Below the pieces are notes generated by a model. The model had not been told where the DNA came from. It did not search any database and saw only the letters and a list, made by a program, of their open reading frames with translations. From Bryum argenteum (taxonomy: Eukaryota; Streptophyta; Bryopsida; Bryales; Bryaceae): a DNA stretch of 64,000 bases. The stretch's first letter is position 1; the number at the start of each line of letters is the position of its first letter. A program made the translations under genes and the position numbers. The DNA lies in assembly GCA_037043015.1 (NCBI GenBank), contig CM073328.1, forward strand, positions 11,939,495 through 12,003,494. The letters are read 5' to 3'. Below, in pieces: positions 52,963 through 63,849 of this stretch.

Positions 52963-55185
52963 ATGGCGGATCGACTATCATACGCAAGCGCATCAAAAGA
53001 AAAGATGGAACATGCTCTAGTAGCGCCTTCTATTTCAACAGCTGAATTAGAGAGAGAGGCGGCCAAGAAAGGAGAAGAAATTGAGCCGGAATTAGTAGCA
53101 GCAGTGACCAACATGGGTCGACACGCAGATATTCACCCAACAATAGCAACGCCAGGGGAGTTACTCCCGGAAGGTTACTCACGCAGCTGTGCCGGGTTCC
53201 TCCTGTGCAACACAATCGTTGAAATCAAGGTGGATCAAGAAGTGGTTAGAAAGGAATCAGAGCGATTGTAGAAACTGGCCGTAGTGGCGTATTTTGTTGG
53301 GGGAAGGCAGACGCCATCATTCCTCAATCAATGGGTAGCGGCGCTGCAAACGCAGATAGGAGACTGGGTAGGATTAGGGCGTGATCTTGGAAAAGGGTTT
53401 TTCCAAATCCTCACTCGGCAGGCTTCAACGACGCAGAAGGTTTTGATGCTTACGCCTCACCGGACGCGTTGGGGAACGTGCATCTTACAGACATGGACAC
53501 CAGGCTTTGATTCTAGCAAACCATCAAAACTCAAGGTGCCGACGTGGGTGACGCTCAGAGGTATCCCCGGTGAATTTCTGGGGGTGGCCAAGGACATTGC
53601 AGTTGGGCTGGGAGAGTGGCTGGGGACAGATAAGAGGAACGCACACACGACGGATCAAAGGTTTTGTGTGGCGTTGCAGTCGGGTGTAGGGTGGACGACC
53701 CAACTTGCCGTGCAAAACGATCAAACCAAGGAGAGGTTCATCATTATGGTTGACTATTGCAATCTTCCCATACGGTGTCGATGCTGTTACTCCACGGATC
53801 ACCTCATCAAGGATTGCCCTAACATCAAGAGGCCGGAGCCAATTGGGGATTCATCGGGAGTGCTGCCTACTGGAGACAGAAGTTTGGCATCCGCCAGTGA
53901 TAAACCTGTGGAAAAAGGGGTGGCGGAGGCTGCGGGCAACCCAGTGGTGCAGCCCGTGGTTAAAGAACCAGCTCCGGCGAGCGCTCCGAGGAGCTCGTTT
54001 GACAGCCTTCTAGGAGTTAACTCGGAACCCTCGACAGATATTTCAGGTAATCACTACTTGAATGGAGAGTCTAGGGAGACCCCAGATTGGAGCTGGAATG
54101 GGTGGGAGAAAGTGCCAAGGCGTAAGTACCCTGTCAGGTTTTCGAGTCAACACGTTTATAAAAAAGATAGGAGACCGAATGAAGAGCGTAGACAGACATC
54201 GAGTCTTCCCCAGGAAGGTAGAAAAGAAAGCCAAGTGGCGATTGGCAGTAAAGGAAAGGCTGTCGAGGGCACAAGAAGGGAGAAGGCTCAAAGTCAAGGT
54301 AGAAGGACAGAGATGGTCGAAACTCCAGTGGCTCCCACGGTGCAGAAGATCCCCGCCACTTTGGCTACAGTTGGGGATGGTAGTAATGGAATGAGATGCC
54401 CATCCACCACGAGCGAACCTGGAGAGAGGGTTGTAAGCCAAGACAGACAACCGCAACAATTAGCAACTATGTCCCAAGGAGGAGGGCCCACGAATGACCC
54501 TTTGGCGGTCGATGAAGCAGAATTTCTACGTCTCGAAGCACTAGATTCGGTTCAGTTAGCGAAAGAGCATGCTGCACTTCACCTGAAGCAACACCCGTTG
54601 GCAAGGCGAAAAGACACATGGACAAGCGTAGACAATGCTGGAGGGTGGTTGGACGAACAAAGTAGTCAAGGACGAAGCATGCTTCCACCGAACCACGAAG
54701 GGGCAAGTGGGCAACAAGACGAAGTTATGATCTTCTTTGCTACAGCGCGGCCGGTCCCGGATCTTAACCGTTTGGCGGCCAGGTCTGGCTCCGTAGCAGT
54801 TGATGGTAATAACGCTGGGGAGGGCTCTAGGGCACTCGCGCCTCAGCTAATGGGCAACAAAGGACGATTGATCAGTAAAAAATCCGGGGCGTCAACGCTG
54901 CACACGCCCAGGCAGCCTCAAGATGGGCTGGCAGAGGAGTTGTATGCTGAATTTTTCACCTGGATGCAGCAGCGATACGGGAGGGAGGACAACTCACAAC
55001 TCACGAAGAAGGAAGCAATTACTCCGCAACAAGCAGTTCGAAGAGAGGAGTCGCTGCAAGCGAGGAGGAGGCTGAGGAATACGATTCTGTCACACCGCCG
55101 CAGTGTGCAGAGGGATGATAACCAAGGTACCGAGTCTTGCAGCGTTGAGCCTTTTGCAGAACCATCCTCACCGCACCCGGAATGA
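52963..55185 (+). pseudogene. LINE ORF1 (RNA-binding gag-like protein), one nonsense codon
   Basis: The frame starts at the ATG at 52963 (MADRLSYASASKEKM) and runs to the TGA at 55183-55185, but a TAG at 53269-53271 interrupts it after about 102 codons. The continuation is in the same frame. The N-terminal half resembles the DUF4283-type domain of plant LINE ORF1 proteins (WGTCILQTWTPGF). A CX2CX4HX4C zinc knuckle (CRCCYSTDHLIKDC) lies near 53,770-53,815. The C-terminal half is a basic, Gln/Arg-rich disordered tail. ORF1 proteins bind the element RNA. Its stop overlaps the ORF2 start as ATGA. Confidence 0.88.
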
Positions 55186-58100
55186 AGATTACATCTTTAT
55201 TTCAGAATGTACAGGGGCTTAACGACCCCCTAAAGGTAGATATTGTGAGACGATACTACCGTGGTTTGTTTGATAGTGTAGAAGTTTTGTGCTTTCAAGA
55301 GCACCATCTTCGAGGGGACAGGCTACTAGCGTTGCAATCTTCGTTATGGCCTCAGGCTCAATTTTATGGGGTCGAAGCTGCTGTTGGTTTTGGTAATTAG
55401 CCTGAGGAAGAAGGGGCCGGTAAGGGAGGGGTCTGCTTGTGGGTCGATCCTAGAGTGGCGCATCTCGTTTCGGATTCAGGAAGGACGCTGGATGGGAGAG
55501 CACAGTGGATCCGTTTTGCAGGTGTCCCGGGTGGTGATGTGGCGGTTTTGAACGTCTATGCTTCCATTCATGTCCAGGAGAGGTGTGCTTTGTGGGAGGA
55601 GCTGCGCGACCTATTACCCAAGGATTGTAGATGGATTGTGTGCGGTGATTGGAACTTTGTAGAAAGAAGGGAGGATAAATCTAATATAAATGGTAGACTG
55701 ATTTCTATAGGAGAGAGTAGGGTCTTTAATCTCCTTAAAGATAGCTTAAATGTCTATGAGGATTTCAAAGCGCCCAATGGTGTCCGATTCTCATGAGATA
55801 ATCGGCGTGTAGGGGCCCTTAGATCGCTGGCTAGGTTGGATCGTTGCTATAGTTTTGTGCAGGTAGGAGCAGGGGCGGATCCGGTTATTGAGTACCACAT
55901 CAAAGGCGATTGTTACCATTCTGATTACCTTCCGGTGCTCTGCTCAATCCTTCTCCAACCTCTTTTGCAGAGGCGTTCGGCCTACAAGATGAATAGCTTG
56001 TACTTGAAGGACCCGGTTATGGTCAACAACATTAGTCGAATATGGGGGCAAAACCCTCACCTTGGGTTTACCGGGAAGCTGCGGAAAGCGGTGAAGTACT
56101 ACCGTGAGTACTGTGTGAAGAAGGCAGCAGTTTTTCGAGCGGAGGAGGCACGGCTGAGGCGTAGCGTGGCGTTGTCCACCATCGAGCTTCACAATGACCC
56201 GGACAATGAGGAGCTACAGAGAAGACTAGGTGAGGCGGGTGAGCGCCTTAAATTAGCTGAGACGCGGAAGGTAGAAGGGCAAAGGATTAGGAGTCGGGTT
56301 AAGTGGAAAAGGGTGGGCGATTCCTGTACGCCGGAGTTTTTTCGTGCCTCTAAGGCTCATTCCGACGCCTCGTGTATCACGGCCTTAGAGGACGAGCAAG
56401 GCGGTCTTCGCACTTACCAGCGTAGTTTGGAGGAGGTGTGTACAGCCTTTTACTCGAAGCTCTATACGGCCCCTCCCGAAACGGTGGCGCGTACTAAAGC
56501 CGCGGAGGATGGACTGTCGGCAATCTCAGACCGGCTGACCTCGGAGATGAAGTCGAAGCTGAAGTCTCCAATGTCGATGGAGGAGTTCACGAGAGCGCTA
56601 GCAGACATGGCTCGAGGGAAGGCCCCCGGGCCTGACGGGGTGATTACCGAATGTTTCCAGGCCTTCTGGGAGGTCATTAACGTTGACTACCTCCACATGG
56701 TCAACTTAGCGATCTCTGATGGCCATTTTCCCCCGGGAGTCACGAATGGGCTTATCTCGTTGCTCCACAAGGGAGACACCAGGTTTCGCCTCACCAATTG
56801 GCGACCCATTACACTGCTTAATGTAGTGTACAAGTTGTTTGCCAAAGCTCTCCAAATCCGTGTCCAACCGGTTTTAATGGAGGTCATCAACCTCGACCAG
56901 TCGGCATTCCTCCCCTTGCGGTTCATCCTCGACAACATCCTCCTCACCCACGAAACCATGGCTTGGGCGAAGTATTCCTGTCAACCTCTCATTTTCTTGA
57001 AGTTGGACTTTGCTAAAGCTTACGACTTGGTTGAGTGGCCTTTCTTATTTAGTGCTATGAGAACGCTTGGGTTCCCGGAAGAATTTGTAGGAATGACTCG
57101 GTTGTTGTTTTGTGACGCCACTGCTTCTGTGAAAGTAAATGGGTCACAATCCGAAGAGTTTTCTATACAACGTGGGGTTAGACAAGGTTGCCCCTTGGCG
57201 CCCTACCTTTTCCTAATTGTAGCGGAGGTTCTCAATGCCATGGTCAAGCGTGGTATGGCTGCAGGGGTAGTCAAAGGCATTGAGCTGCCGGCACAGGGAG
57301 GGCAGCAGACCATCGCGCAGTTTGCGGACGACACTTCGCTGACCCTGCTGGGAGAAGAAGAGCCGGCCAAAGAGTTGTTTCGGGTGTTAGACAGGTTTTG
57401 TTTAGGGTCTAGGTTGATCCTCAATAGGACTAAGTCATGCGGGTACTGGAAACACGTAGGAGGTGGAGGTAGGCCACCGTGGACGGAGCAGCTTAATGTT
57501 ATTTGGGTGGACAATGCGGAAGTTGGGAAGCTGCTGGGGAAGCCTTTCGGGCTGTCGCTGGCCTCGGAGGAGGTGGACACCTTCCTCGCCAATCGGGTTA
57601 CTAAAAAGTTACAATATTGGTGCACCACCAAAGTTAATGCGACCGGACGTGGTGTTATTGTGAACAATGTTCTTTTGTCGTCGGTGTTGTTCTTTGTCTC
57701 TATTTGGGGTGGCACTGAGAAGGGCGTTAAGAAAGTTACTTCTGCTATCCAGAATTACATGTGGTCCGGTTCTATGCACAGAGCGCGGACCAAAGTGTCT
57801 TGGGCGCAGTGTTGCCTGCCGAAGGCTGAAGGGGGTATCAACGTCATGAACCCGAAGGATGCTTTGATTGTGTTGATGTGCAAATGGGTGCTGAAGGCTT
57901 GCGAACCAGGGACTTCGAACCTACAGACTTTGATCAAGTTCCGTTTGACCGCTTTTCAACCTAATCAAGGTGGGAGATGGAGTCCTAGCATGGAGTATTT
58001 TACCTTGGCAAACTCTCAGGCGCGTCAGGGCTCAGTGGCTTGGACGAGAGCGGGGAAGGCTTGGAAGAGCCTGAGACCTGCTGTCATCTCTCGGCTGGTG

Positions 58101-59492
58101 ACTACACGTGAAGAGGTATTGAGTGAGCCCTTTTGGTGGTCGTCACAAGTGCCCTTGATTGGGGCGGGTTTCTCCAAACTCCGGGCTGCTCAACTTCATA
58201 AGGCCGGGCTTAGGAGAATTCGTGATGCTGTTGAGGGTGTTCGGCTTTTTTGTGCAGAGGAGGTTGTGGCTAAGTTTGGGCTCTTGGAAGCGGAGAGTGG
58301 TGCCTGGAATGCGGCCTGTGGGGCGCTGCTCAACGAATGGGGCCTGTTGATCGGTACGCAAACTTGTGAGGCGAGTACTGGGGAGTGGCTTGGGTGGTTT
58401 GAAGTCGACTCTGATCTGGAGGCGAAGGTCGTCTTGCAAGCACCACTGCGGCCGCGCGTGAGTATCGAAGGCCCGGAGGGGGTGTGGCCGCTGAGTAGGT
58501 TCACTCAGACCTTCACGGTCCAAACGGTAACGAAGTGTTTACGGCCATCGGAGTGGCCAGGTAGCGTGAGCCTGGAGGATGCTCGCTTATCGAGAGGGGT
58601 ATTCCGGAGAGTGCGGGTCGTTAAAGTTACCAGGGGTCCGAAGAAGGAGGTTGTTCAGTTGTTCTACGGCCGCATTGACAAGCTCGAATGGGACCCTGGA
58701 AAGTTTGTGTGGGACATTGGGAAGAAGGGAGTCCCGTTCATGAAATACTCTGCTAAAATTGGTCGGGAGCTGTTAAGGAACCGCATTGTCGTGGATAATC
58801 CTGTGACTCGAAAGTGGCAGGGTATTCTCCCGAACAACTTTAGATTGAAGTGGAAGACAGTTTGGACTAAGGAGCGGACTAGCAAGGAGGCGGGCCTGGT
58901 GTGGTTGATTTGGCATCGGGCAGTTGCTGTAAACTACTGGCGAGGCCGATTCGATGCTAGTGTTGATATCACGTGCCCTGTGTGTGCTGGTGGAAGAGAA
59001 GAATCTATTCTTCACCGCTTCTGGGAGTGTGTTTCTGCGAGACGTGCTTGGCAGTGGGCGGTTCATATTATGAACGTTCTGATCAGTGGTAGGACTGCTG
59101 CGGGGCCTTGGCAAATGATGTCATGGAAACAAGGTATTTTCTCGGATGCCATCCCTAGGAAGTTTAACCAGGTGAAGCGGGTATGGATGGAACTGCGCAC
59201 CGTTGTGTTGTGGGCGCTTTGGATAGAAAGAAACGATAAGATTTTTAATGGCACTAGCTGGACGCCAGAGAAGATGTACCAGGTGGTGTGGTCGGGCATC
59301 ATCGATTACGGAAGAGTAGAGTGGAGCAAGGTCAAACAGAGGAGGATCTCCCATCCTGATCAAGCAGCGAGAGACTTTGACCAATTTAGAGATAGAAGGG
59401 GTAGTGGCGAAGTTTTTGCCACCTTCAGGCTAGACTTGCCGAAGTGGCAGGTTAGAGGTCCGGATGAAGGTTTTGTTTTGAATATGTCTTGA
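55182..59492 (+). pseudogene. LINE ORF2 (endonuclease and reverse transcriptase), two nonsense codons
   Basis: About 1436 residues in one frame, starting MKITSLFQNVQGLND, broken by TAG at 55398-55400 and TGA at 55794-55796. The APE-type endonuclease shows FQEHHL and VCGDWNF, but its last catalytic motif reads SDY where the family has SDH. The reverse transcriptase domain has LTNWRPITLLNVVYKLFAKA, FLKLDFAKAYDLVEW, GVRQGCPLAPYLF and the catalytic FADD at about residues 714-717. A zinc-binding domain near the C-terminus (CPVCAGGREESILHRFWEC) is typical of plant L1 elements. The protein nicks target DNA and copies the element RNA onto it. Confidence 0.95.
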
Positions 59493-61777: not shown

Positions 61778-63671
61778 CTCTGTGAAGTACTTTTGCGACT
61801 TCTATCGAGAACAGGCTGGACTTCAATGGCAAACTTCAGCACGAGGGATCCCTCAAAGTTGATGAGTCTAAGCGGAAGTTGCATATCAGACACAGACACA
61901 AACAACAACCTCTGGCTGACCGCAACCCGCAACAAATCCACAACTATCACCGCAGCAGTCGACAGTGCCTGCAAAGCAGTGTACGCAACAAAGATTCACA
62001 TACAGTCACCATGGAACACGTCCTTCACTTTCACGATCCATCCCTCGCCGGGGGGCCTTACCGGGCCAGTTCCTCACGTTCGCCATCACGGCCAGCCCCA
62101 CTGTGGGCACACCAGCCACAGCCGGATTGTTCAACGATACCGACTCCGCACCCCTCACGCCCTCCGTTGCAATCTGCTTCTTCACGTACTGGAACAATGT
62201 ATCGATTCTTGTCAACGAGAAGTTCCAGGAGGGGAGCGCGGTTTGGAACTGGAATCTCGATAAGTTCAATGTGTCGCTGAACAAGGCTTATGATCGAGTA
62301 CGAAGCTATAAAGCTTGGATTGATTATGATGGGGATACGGTTGCGTTTTATATTGTAGCGCTTGATGGTCCCGCTGCGACGAAGAGTGTTGATTCCCGGG
62401 TGTTTTCGGAGAAGCTGGATCTTTCGAATGCTCTGCCGGCGGAGTCTTACGTGGGGTTCACCGCTGCCACTACTGCTGATGATCGGGAGATTCACGAGAT
62501 TTTGAGTTGGGAGTTTTCACCGAGCTCTGAGTCGTCGCCCACATCAGGAGCATCACCCATCCCCGGGTAAGCACTCATAGCACTTGTGCCAATTTGCATA
62601 GAATCTTGTGGGTTGCAAGAGATTGTACCTCTCAATCATTCAGCTACTTGTCGTGCTCTACATGATTTGGAGTAGTATTTACAAATTTATCAATTAATTC
62701 TTCCTTTCGACTTTGCCATTAAACTCAACTTCAGCAACAATGATATAATTTTTAATGAACTTCAGCAACAATGATATAATTTTTAATGAAGAGATCGTTA
62801 TTAAATTACAAGTATAATGATATTACAAAGAAGTGATGTTGCTTTGAGAATGGCAGTGGAGGTGCCATATTGGAACTGTAATAGATGGGAGCATGGCACT
62901 TTGTGTCAAAATGGAAATACTGGTATGTCAATAGGGACAATTCAACAACTTTGAGGTTAGAAGCATTACCACTAGAATAAGAGGATAACAGTATCTGCTC
63001 TCTTACAGGATGAGTGCTCATAAGGGAACAAATATCAACGAGAGAGCAATCATAGGAGCCTGCATTGAGGGAATGATATTCCTTCTAATAATCGTACTCC
63101 TGCTTCGACAAATATTCCTGAAAAGATTTTCTTGCAAAAAATTCACCAAGTTACGCGTCTTCATCTCCCACACAGGCGGTAGCGACGGCCAAGCAAAGAA
63201 CTTCCCAATCTCACTCTCTGAGAAATTAAAGCAGGACCCGCGGTACGACGTTTTCATCGATACACAGATGCGGAAAGGCGTGGATTTCACTGTCGAGATT
63301 AAGCGGGAGGCGCAACGGTTTGATTTGGGGATAGTGGTAGTGACAAAGGAGTATTTTGAGAAGAAGTGGCCCATGATCGAGTTGGTTGAGTTTGTGGAGA
63401 TGTTTCAAAGTGGGCATCCGAGTGTCCGTTTGTTGCCATTGTTTTATACATTGACTCCGGGGATGTTCGTGCGCTTCTCGATGAGAGCTTTTGGGACGCG
63501 GCATGGAAGAGTATGGGGACTGAAGAGCATCCCGTGGATGTGAAGAAGTGGCAACAAGTTGTGAAGCAACTTTGCGCTTTGAATGGAGTTGTGTATAAAT
63601 ACCGTGATGGGAGTCACGAAGCTGAGTATATTCAAGATGTTGTGAAAGAAGTGGATTCTATTTTTGAAGAG
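61778..63671 (+). CDS. L-type lectin - transmembrane - TIR receptor-like protein (5' end unresolved, two apparent frameshifts)
   Basis: Lectin exon 61778-62566 follows the acceptor CTTCTTGCAG. It shows LMSLSGSCISDTDTNNNLWL and NTSFTFTIHP, then after a +1 change near 62050-62065 QFLTFAITASP, RSYKAWIDYDGDTVAFYIVA, VFSEKLDLSNALP, SYVGFTAAT and EILSWEFS: the legume-type lectin beta-sandwich. A Ser/Pro-rich stalk ends at donor CCCGG/GTAAGC. The intron (62567-63008) joins in phase to exon 63009-63671. That exon encodes a membrane span (AIIGACIEGMIFLLIIVLLL), a basic stop-transfer stretch, and a TIR domain: LRVFISHTGGSD, YDVFIDTQMRKGVDF, DLGIVVVTKEYFEKKWPMIE (the final E at the position of the NADase glutamate), and VRLLPLFYTLTPG. 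After a one-base change near 63459 it continues DVRALLDESFWDAAWKSMG and KKWQQVVKQLC...EYIQDVVKEVDSIFEE. L-lectin ectodomains normally join kinases; TIR domains signal in immunity. The exon ends at a GTGAGT donor just before a TAG (63678). Confidence 0.72.
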
Positions 63672-63849
63672 GTGAGTTAGAACCATAATTCTTATATTTA
63701 GAATTTTACTTTAGGGAAATTTCCACAAGGATGGGTGGTAAAAATAAAGGTCTCTGGAACAAGAAGGGCGGAGTCTCATAATAAGGGGCATTCAATAGAT
63801 CATTGTGATTGTTTATTGAAGTGGACTTTGTTGGCTTGATGTTATGCTG

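Follow-up and report, generated by a model that had tools for sequence, protein, structure and literature searches.

A frame-broken and probably decaying copy of a moss gene family that joins an L-type lectin to a TIR domain

The mosses Bryum argenteum and Ceratodon purpureus carry genes in which an L-type lectin domain, a predicted single membrane span and a TIR domain follow one another, an architecture that is supported at the level of the family and is present in multiple copies in B. argenteum. The copy in the window, by which we mean the whole 64,000-nt stretch analysed (C8:11939495–12003494, in an assembly of 258.8 Mb and 25 contigs), is probably a tandem duplicate of such a receptor gene, frame-broken and likely to be decaying; unbroken members of the family would consist of an L-type lectin ectodomain, one membrane span and a TIR domain. 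The modules are known ones, in an order that we find undescribed for plants.

The window copy and its neighbour

The window copy lies on the forward strand and consists of two exons, both broken: an L-type (legume-type) lectin exon at 61778–62566, whose left edge is a splice acceptor (61777|61778), and an exon encoding a transmembrane segment and a TIR domain (TM-TIR) at 63009–63680. These exons, the 442-bp GT-AG intron between them (62567–63008, with an in-phase GG|G junction) and the glutamate of the plant W..xEL motif had all been proposed in the original prediction, and each is borne out. Lectin_legB (PF00139) matches frame 61920 at 57.1 bits (Pfam cut-off 26.3), and both TIR_2 (39.7 bits, cut-off 28) and TIR (30.3 bits, cut-off 21.3) match frame 62989; the motif reads WPMIEL, with the codon for the putative catalytic glutamate at 63379–63381. 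A Kyte–Doolittle hydropathy scan predicts a single, strongly hydrophobic membrane span followed by basic residues (63040–63135, forward strand) ahead of the TIR domain (63148–63677), which thus takes the place after the span that a kinase would occupy. Directly upstream of the copy, at 53272–59492 of the window, lies an element that by eye is LINE-like, with open frames of 637 and 1231 aa.

Continuous coding through this copy, as originally envisaged, does not hold. Roughly the first third of the lectin is encoded in frame 61760; at a G run (62050–62055) the reading passes to frame 61920, which encodes the remainder. A second G run, at 63459–63462, moves the TIR reading from frame 62989, which serves up to 63459, to frame 63390, which serves from about 63462, with the consequence that the reading from exon 1 ends at a stop (63541–63543) after a series of out-of-frame residues. 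What stays readable in one spliced frame is the 3′ part of the lectin, the membrane span and about two-thirds of the TIR domain, which is shortened by the frame change though its glutamate is present. The open stretch of the joining frame in exon 1 (61920–62566) contains no Met. A 14-nt indel relative to the neighbouring copy, at approximately 61797–61813, is a further frame shift if the acceptor 61777|61778 is common to both copies, and it argues for real decay. Tiny introns at either frame change were considered and, by eye only, thought unlikely; the two TIR frames abut without a gap when set against P0001, a related protein described below.

A repeated unit lies about 9.2 kb downstream of the window copy, starting about 7 kb past the end of the window. 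In this neighbour (L010), both frames are open (262 aa for the lectin and 323 aa for the TIR), with the phase kept across the 738-bp intron that separates them. The two-exon layout and its phase are identical to those in the window copy, which argues that the arrangement there is not due to chance. Divergence between the two copies is uneven: dS is 0.154 for the first 74 lectin codons in the comparison, falls to 0.008 in the following 168 and reaches 0.275 across 221 TM-TIR codons, for which pairwise dN/dS is 0.54. The pattern is in keeping with duplicates of greater age between which most of the lectin exon was recently converted, and the dN/dS value indicates that at least one copy was to some degree constrained while they diverged. 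Taken together, conversion and constraint imply that the frame changes are recent mutations, although the two that lie in G runs may instead be errors of the consensus. Further fragments resembling the flanks of the repeated unit are found at about 12015900–12017000 on C8 and suggest a third, partial copy.

The position of both frame changes in G runs also raises the alternative that the gene is intact in the living plant, with both changes introduced as consensus or assembly errors, and encodes a working receptor. The near identity of the 3′ part of the lectin to the neighbour and a pairwise dN/dS below 1 across the TM-TIR pieces would agree with this, but the 14-nt indel is no homopolymer error, though its effect depends on the first exon, and the open 1231-aa frame of the LINE-like element is a weak sign against an assembly that is generally frame-broken here; on these grounds we consider an intact gene unlikely. 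A truncated product with part of the lectin, the membrane span and a partial TIR domain, acting as a decoy or dominant regulator, would make use of the one spliced frame that remains readable; as the exon-1 frame lacks a Met, however, such a product would need a start elsewhere or in exon 2, and we regard it as highly improbable. The window copy is most likely an interrupted, decaying duplicate.

Relatives within the genome and elsewhere

Adjacent lectin and TIR matches on the same strand occur at no fewer than 14 places on four contigs of this genome, including the window copy: two on C8, four on C5, six on C9 and two on C6, among the matches listed. These pairs were matched by eye from the genome-search matches, with splicing at each place taken as given, and their number is a lower bound since the genome search scored the best candidates only (83 of 232); the lectin census used P0003 and P0002 as queries. 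A third TIR on C6 and three on C3 have no lectin beside them among the matches listed. In some of the pairs, one ORF encodes lectin, membrane span and TIR; on C5, four genes are single frames that hold both lectin and TIR (506, 542, 516 and 595 aa, measured from stop to stop).

Three of the loci on C6 (L033, L034 and L035) form a subgroup with WCLTEL in place of WPMxEL; proline-rich linkers are found in L033 and L034, and L035 has a stop within its TIR match. Elsewhere, L019 (2748–4268 of C10:2421000-2430999) has a single open frame of 506 aa in which a kinase-like region comes after a TIR, and L038 and L039 have long frames that by eye look kinase-like too.

Beyond this genome, a first protein search found 5 proteins among 7996 scored candidates, including P0001 and the Ceratodon protein P0003, and a profile search found 245 among 8000. 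Within the best 120 of these 245, PF00139 and PF01582 occur together in P0003, P0007, P0008 and P0009, and the other 116 have the lectin domain without a TIR, mostly with a kinase. The two JGI-sourced proteins, P0001 and P0007, both carry the pair of domains. Pfam detects no NB-ARC, LRR or kinase model in P0001 or P0003, only lectin and TIR. C. purpureus contributes three annotated proteins to the best 120 (P0003, P0008 and P0009); its members stand in the records as KC19_4G069000, KC19_4G152300 and M758_4G153000, the last two of which probably represent the same gene from two strains. Their record names, hypothetical protein or TIR domain-containing protein, give no function. Among the best 120 of the 245, neither vascular plants nor Sphagnum nor Physcomitrium are represented by a protein that joins the two domains, a blank that is no proof of absence as the profile search requires shared five-residue words. 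Of 391 candidates in a search with the TIR region of P0003, two matched: P0003 itself and P0006, a 291-aa protein with a proline-rich N terminus, a membrane span and a TIR but no lectin, which falls into the TIR group of the lectin-TIR genes.

P0001 (306 aa, from a contig of 1173 bases) is 72% identical over 61% of the query and runs in frame, without an intron, through the position of the intron in the window (PTIPG|ASAHRG versus PIPG|MSAHKG). As both C8 genes carry an intron at that position, P0001, which lacks it, probably derives from a transcript and offers indirect evidence that the exon junction in the window is used.

These relatives bear on whether lectin and TIR are simply two adjacent genes joined by chance. 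In the window alone, the join depends on one predicted intron, which is the case for that reading. For the family it is refuted by the C5 single frames and the Ceratodon proteins, which hold both domains, and the in-frame passage of P0001 across the same junction, together with the phase kept by the neighbour, leaves it barely credible. A homologue with both domains in one protein, on which the original prediction hung, is thus found in P0003, P0007–P0009 and the C5 genes. The Toll-like order of lectin, span and TIR that it put forward stands for the family, as represented by the C5 frames, the Ceratodon proteins and the neighbour; the window copy keeps the parts in this order, but in a broken frame.

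Histories of the TIR and lectin domains

The TIR domains group together. In a tree with 21 other TIRs from the same genome (18 loci of one search and 3 of another, from 150 scored matches), 17 rows (16 from lectin-TIR genes, and P0006) make up one side of a branch (100/98), in an analysis for which the program warns of long branches meeting. In an earlier tree that still contained two wrong-frame rows (L006 and L008, later dropped), 2 changes were required for the group. The TIR trees were built without L002, L003, L005, L025, L035, L038, L039 and all unfetched TIR matches, and three C9 pairs, the C6 lectins and the C3 TIRs likewise stand outside the trees. All 17 rows have W[PC][ML]xEL with the putative NADase glutamate, and the nearest solved structures are those of the plant TIRs AT1G72930, L6 and RPS4; the family may have NADase activity.

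The lectins have a different history. In the lectin tree, the 13 lectin-TIR rows are placed among 32 others (lectin kinases and P0002) in such a way that 5 changes are needed, all of them forced by starred branches. Uniting the 13 in one clade costs 302 log-likelihood units and is rejected (p-AU 1.16e-33), in a test for which the group was defined by architecture but which was run after the first lectin tree had been viewed. That first tree contained five groups: the C8 lectins with P0002 and P0004 (100/100), the C5 lectins, the C9 lectins with P0007, P0008 with P0009, and P0003 among moss lectin kinases, where its place is resolved only down to a starred fork. The long branches of the C8 group and of C5d call for caution, and P0004, which covers no more than 35% of the columns, was left out of the second tree. 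The five changes would fit repeated gain of a TIR, repeated replacement of the ectodomain or exchange back to kinases, without giving a direction.

The closest relatives of the C8 lectins point to receptor kinases. In P0004 a lectin and a kinase belong to a single protein, and the model of P0002 ends at the start of the kinase. With P0003 and P0002 as lectin queries, the P0002-type lectin (about 60% identity) is found in this genome only at the two C8 genes. A juxtamembrane region and kinase start with 63% identity to P0004 over 153 aa are present on C3 (L042 and L043), and four queries detected no lectin near them in the 2.1 kb and 1.8 kb examined. The two loci may be leftovers of an ectodomain exchange.

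Legume lectins bind metal through the motif ExD..N..D..H. This motif is lost from the C8 pair, the window subtype reading ICFFTYWNN, and is also missing from the kinase sister P0002. Its ExD and His are kept in C9a, C9b, C9d, C5a, C5b, P0003 and P0007 and altered in C5c, C5d, P0008 and P0009. Loss of the canonical residues makes sugar sensing in its classical form doubtful for the C8 subtype, where the original prediction had suggested that the window gene might sense sugars or wall fragments. The C8 ectodomain probably has a ligand other than sugar bound in the classical way, or no ligand at all.

The predicted receptor and known signalling systems

We applied the hydropathy scan to the ten members with an N terminus (P0003, P0007–P0009, C5a–d, C9b and C9d, with the row starts for C5 and C9 chosen by hand). 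A span above threshold precedes the TIR in all ten, barely so in P0003, and seven begin with a hydrophobic, signal-peptide-like stretch above threshold, the value being below it in C5c, C9b and P0007. C5b shows an additional, marginal match within the lectin.

The C8 subtype could lie away from the cell surface, with the lectin fold in the cytosol for want of a signal peptide, or with the protein in an internal membrane. A scan for signal-peptide exons gave nothing convincing ahead of the two C8 genes, with one weak candidate at the neighbour, and the lost metal motif may be read in the same direction. Yet seven other family members start in a signal-peptide-like manner, the closest relatives of the C8 lectin (P0002 and P0004) belong to a receptor kinase, and a short first exon is easy to miss; a location away from the cell surface therefore seems to us rather improbable for this subtype.

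For unbroken members, we propose a receptor that would sit in the plasma membrane with its lectin fold outside. Ligand binding or clustering of the ectodomain would bring the TIR domains together, and the self-associated TIRs would cleave NAD+ or make nucleotide second messengers by means of the conserved glutamate. The protein would in effect do at the cell surface what a lectin receptor kinase does, with a TIR replacing the kinase; the genes are presumably expressed. According to a review, non-seed plants lack members of the EDS1 family, and if this is right, signalling downstream of the lectin-TIR proteins would be EDS1-independent. A wider proposal, which we hold tentatively, is that mosses have a class of surface TIR receptors parallel to the lectin receptor kinases, in which one TIR module has repeatedly been combined with different kinase-type lectin ectodomains. 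Binding outside the cell would then be converted directly into TIR nucleotide signals at the plasma membrane, with neither an intracellular NLR nor EDS1 in between.

Several known systems share parts of this architecture. L-type lectin receptor kinases have the same legume-type lectin ectodomain and single membrane span, and the window lectin groups with those of P0002 and P0004; they differ in having a kinase where the moss proteins have a TIR. Animal Toll-like receptors combine an outside sensor, a membrane span and an inside TIR, with an ectodomain of leucine-rich repeats. The moss proteins likewise have a single span and then a TIR, but their ectodomain has the Lectin_legB fold and their TIR is, among solved structures, nearest to plant TIRs; the two architectures presumably arose independently. 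Plant TIR-NB-ARC-LRR and TIR-only proteins share the TIR with the W..xEL glutamate, whereas P0001 and P0003 have a lectin ectodomain, with a membrane span, instead of NB-ARC and LRR models. Arabidopsis PP2-A5 resembles the moss proteins in that it is a TIR protein with a lectin domain, but it differs in its N-terminal TIR and its PP2 lectin fold, with no membrane span mentioned in the part of the source consulted (PMC12355970, a review of chimerolectins that lists the TIR-PP2 combination).

PP2-A5 is the only TIR-lectin protein that we found in the literature, in a search of titles and abstract openings that left subscription papers and preprints mostly outside its scope. Within the same scope we found no plant protein with the order lectin, membrane span and TIR, in agreement with the original prediction, which knew of no such plant receptor. 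In their main texts, a paper on plant TIR architectures, in which the word lectin is absent (PMC9153377), and a lectin survey of 38 genomes, in which TIR is absent and the table of domain arrangements is a supplement (PMC6362431), do not describe the combination. The Ceratodon proteins KC19_4G069000, KC19_4G152300 and M758_4G153000, with lectin and TIR in one protein, are members of the same family as the window copy.

In the usual picture of plant immunity, surface receptors signal via kinases, and TIR enzymes act inside the cell, largely behind NLRs. If the proposal is true, a multi-gene moss family with a NADase-glutamate TIR directly behind an ectodomain would break this division between kinases at the surface and TIRs inside. 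The disagreement between the trees of the TIR and lectin parts also supplies a concrete case of exchange between kinase and TIR outputs on related ectodomains, and Ceratodon, with its annotated members, offers a system in which lectin-TIR proteins may be tested.
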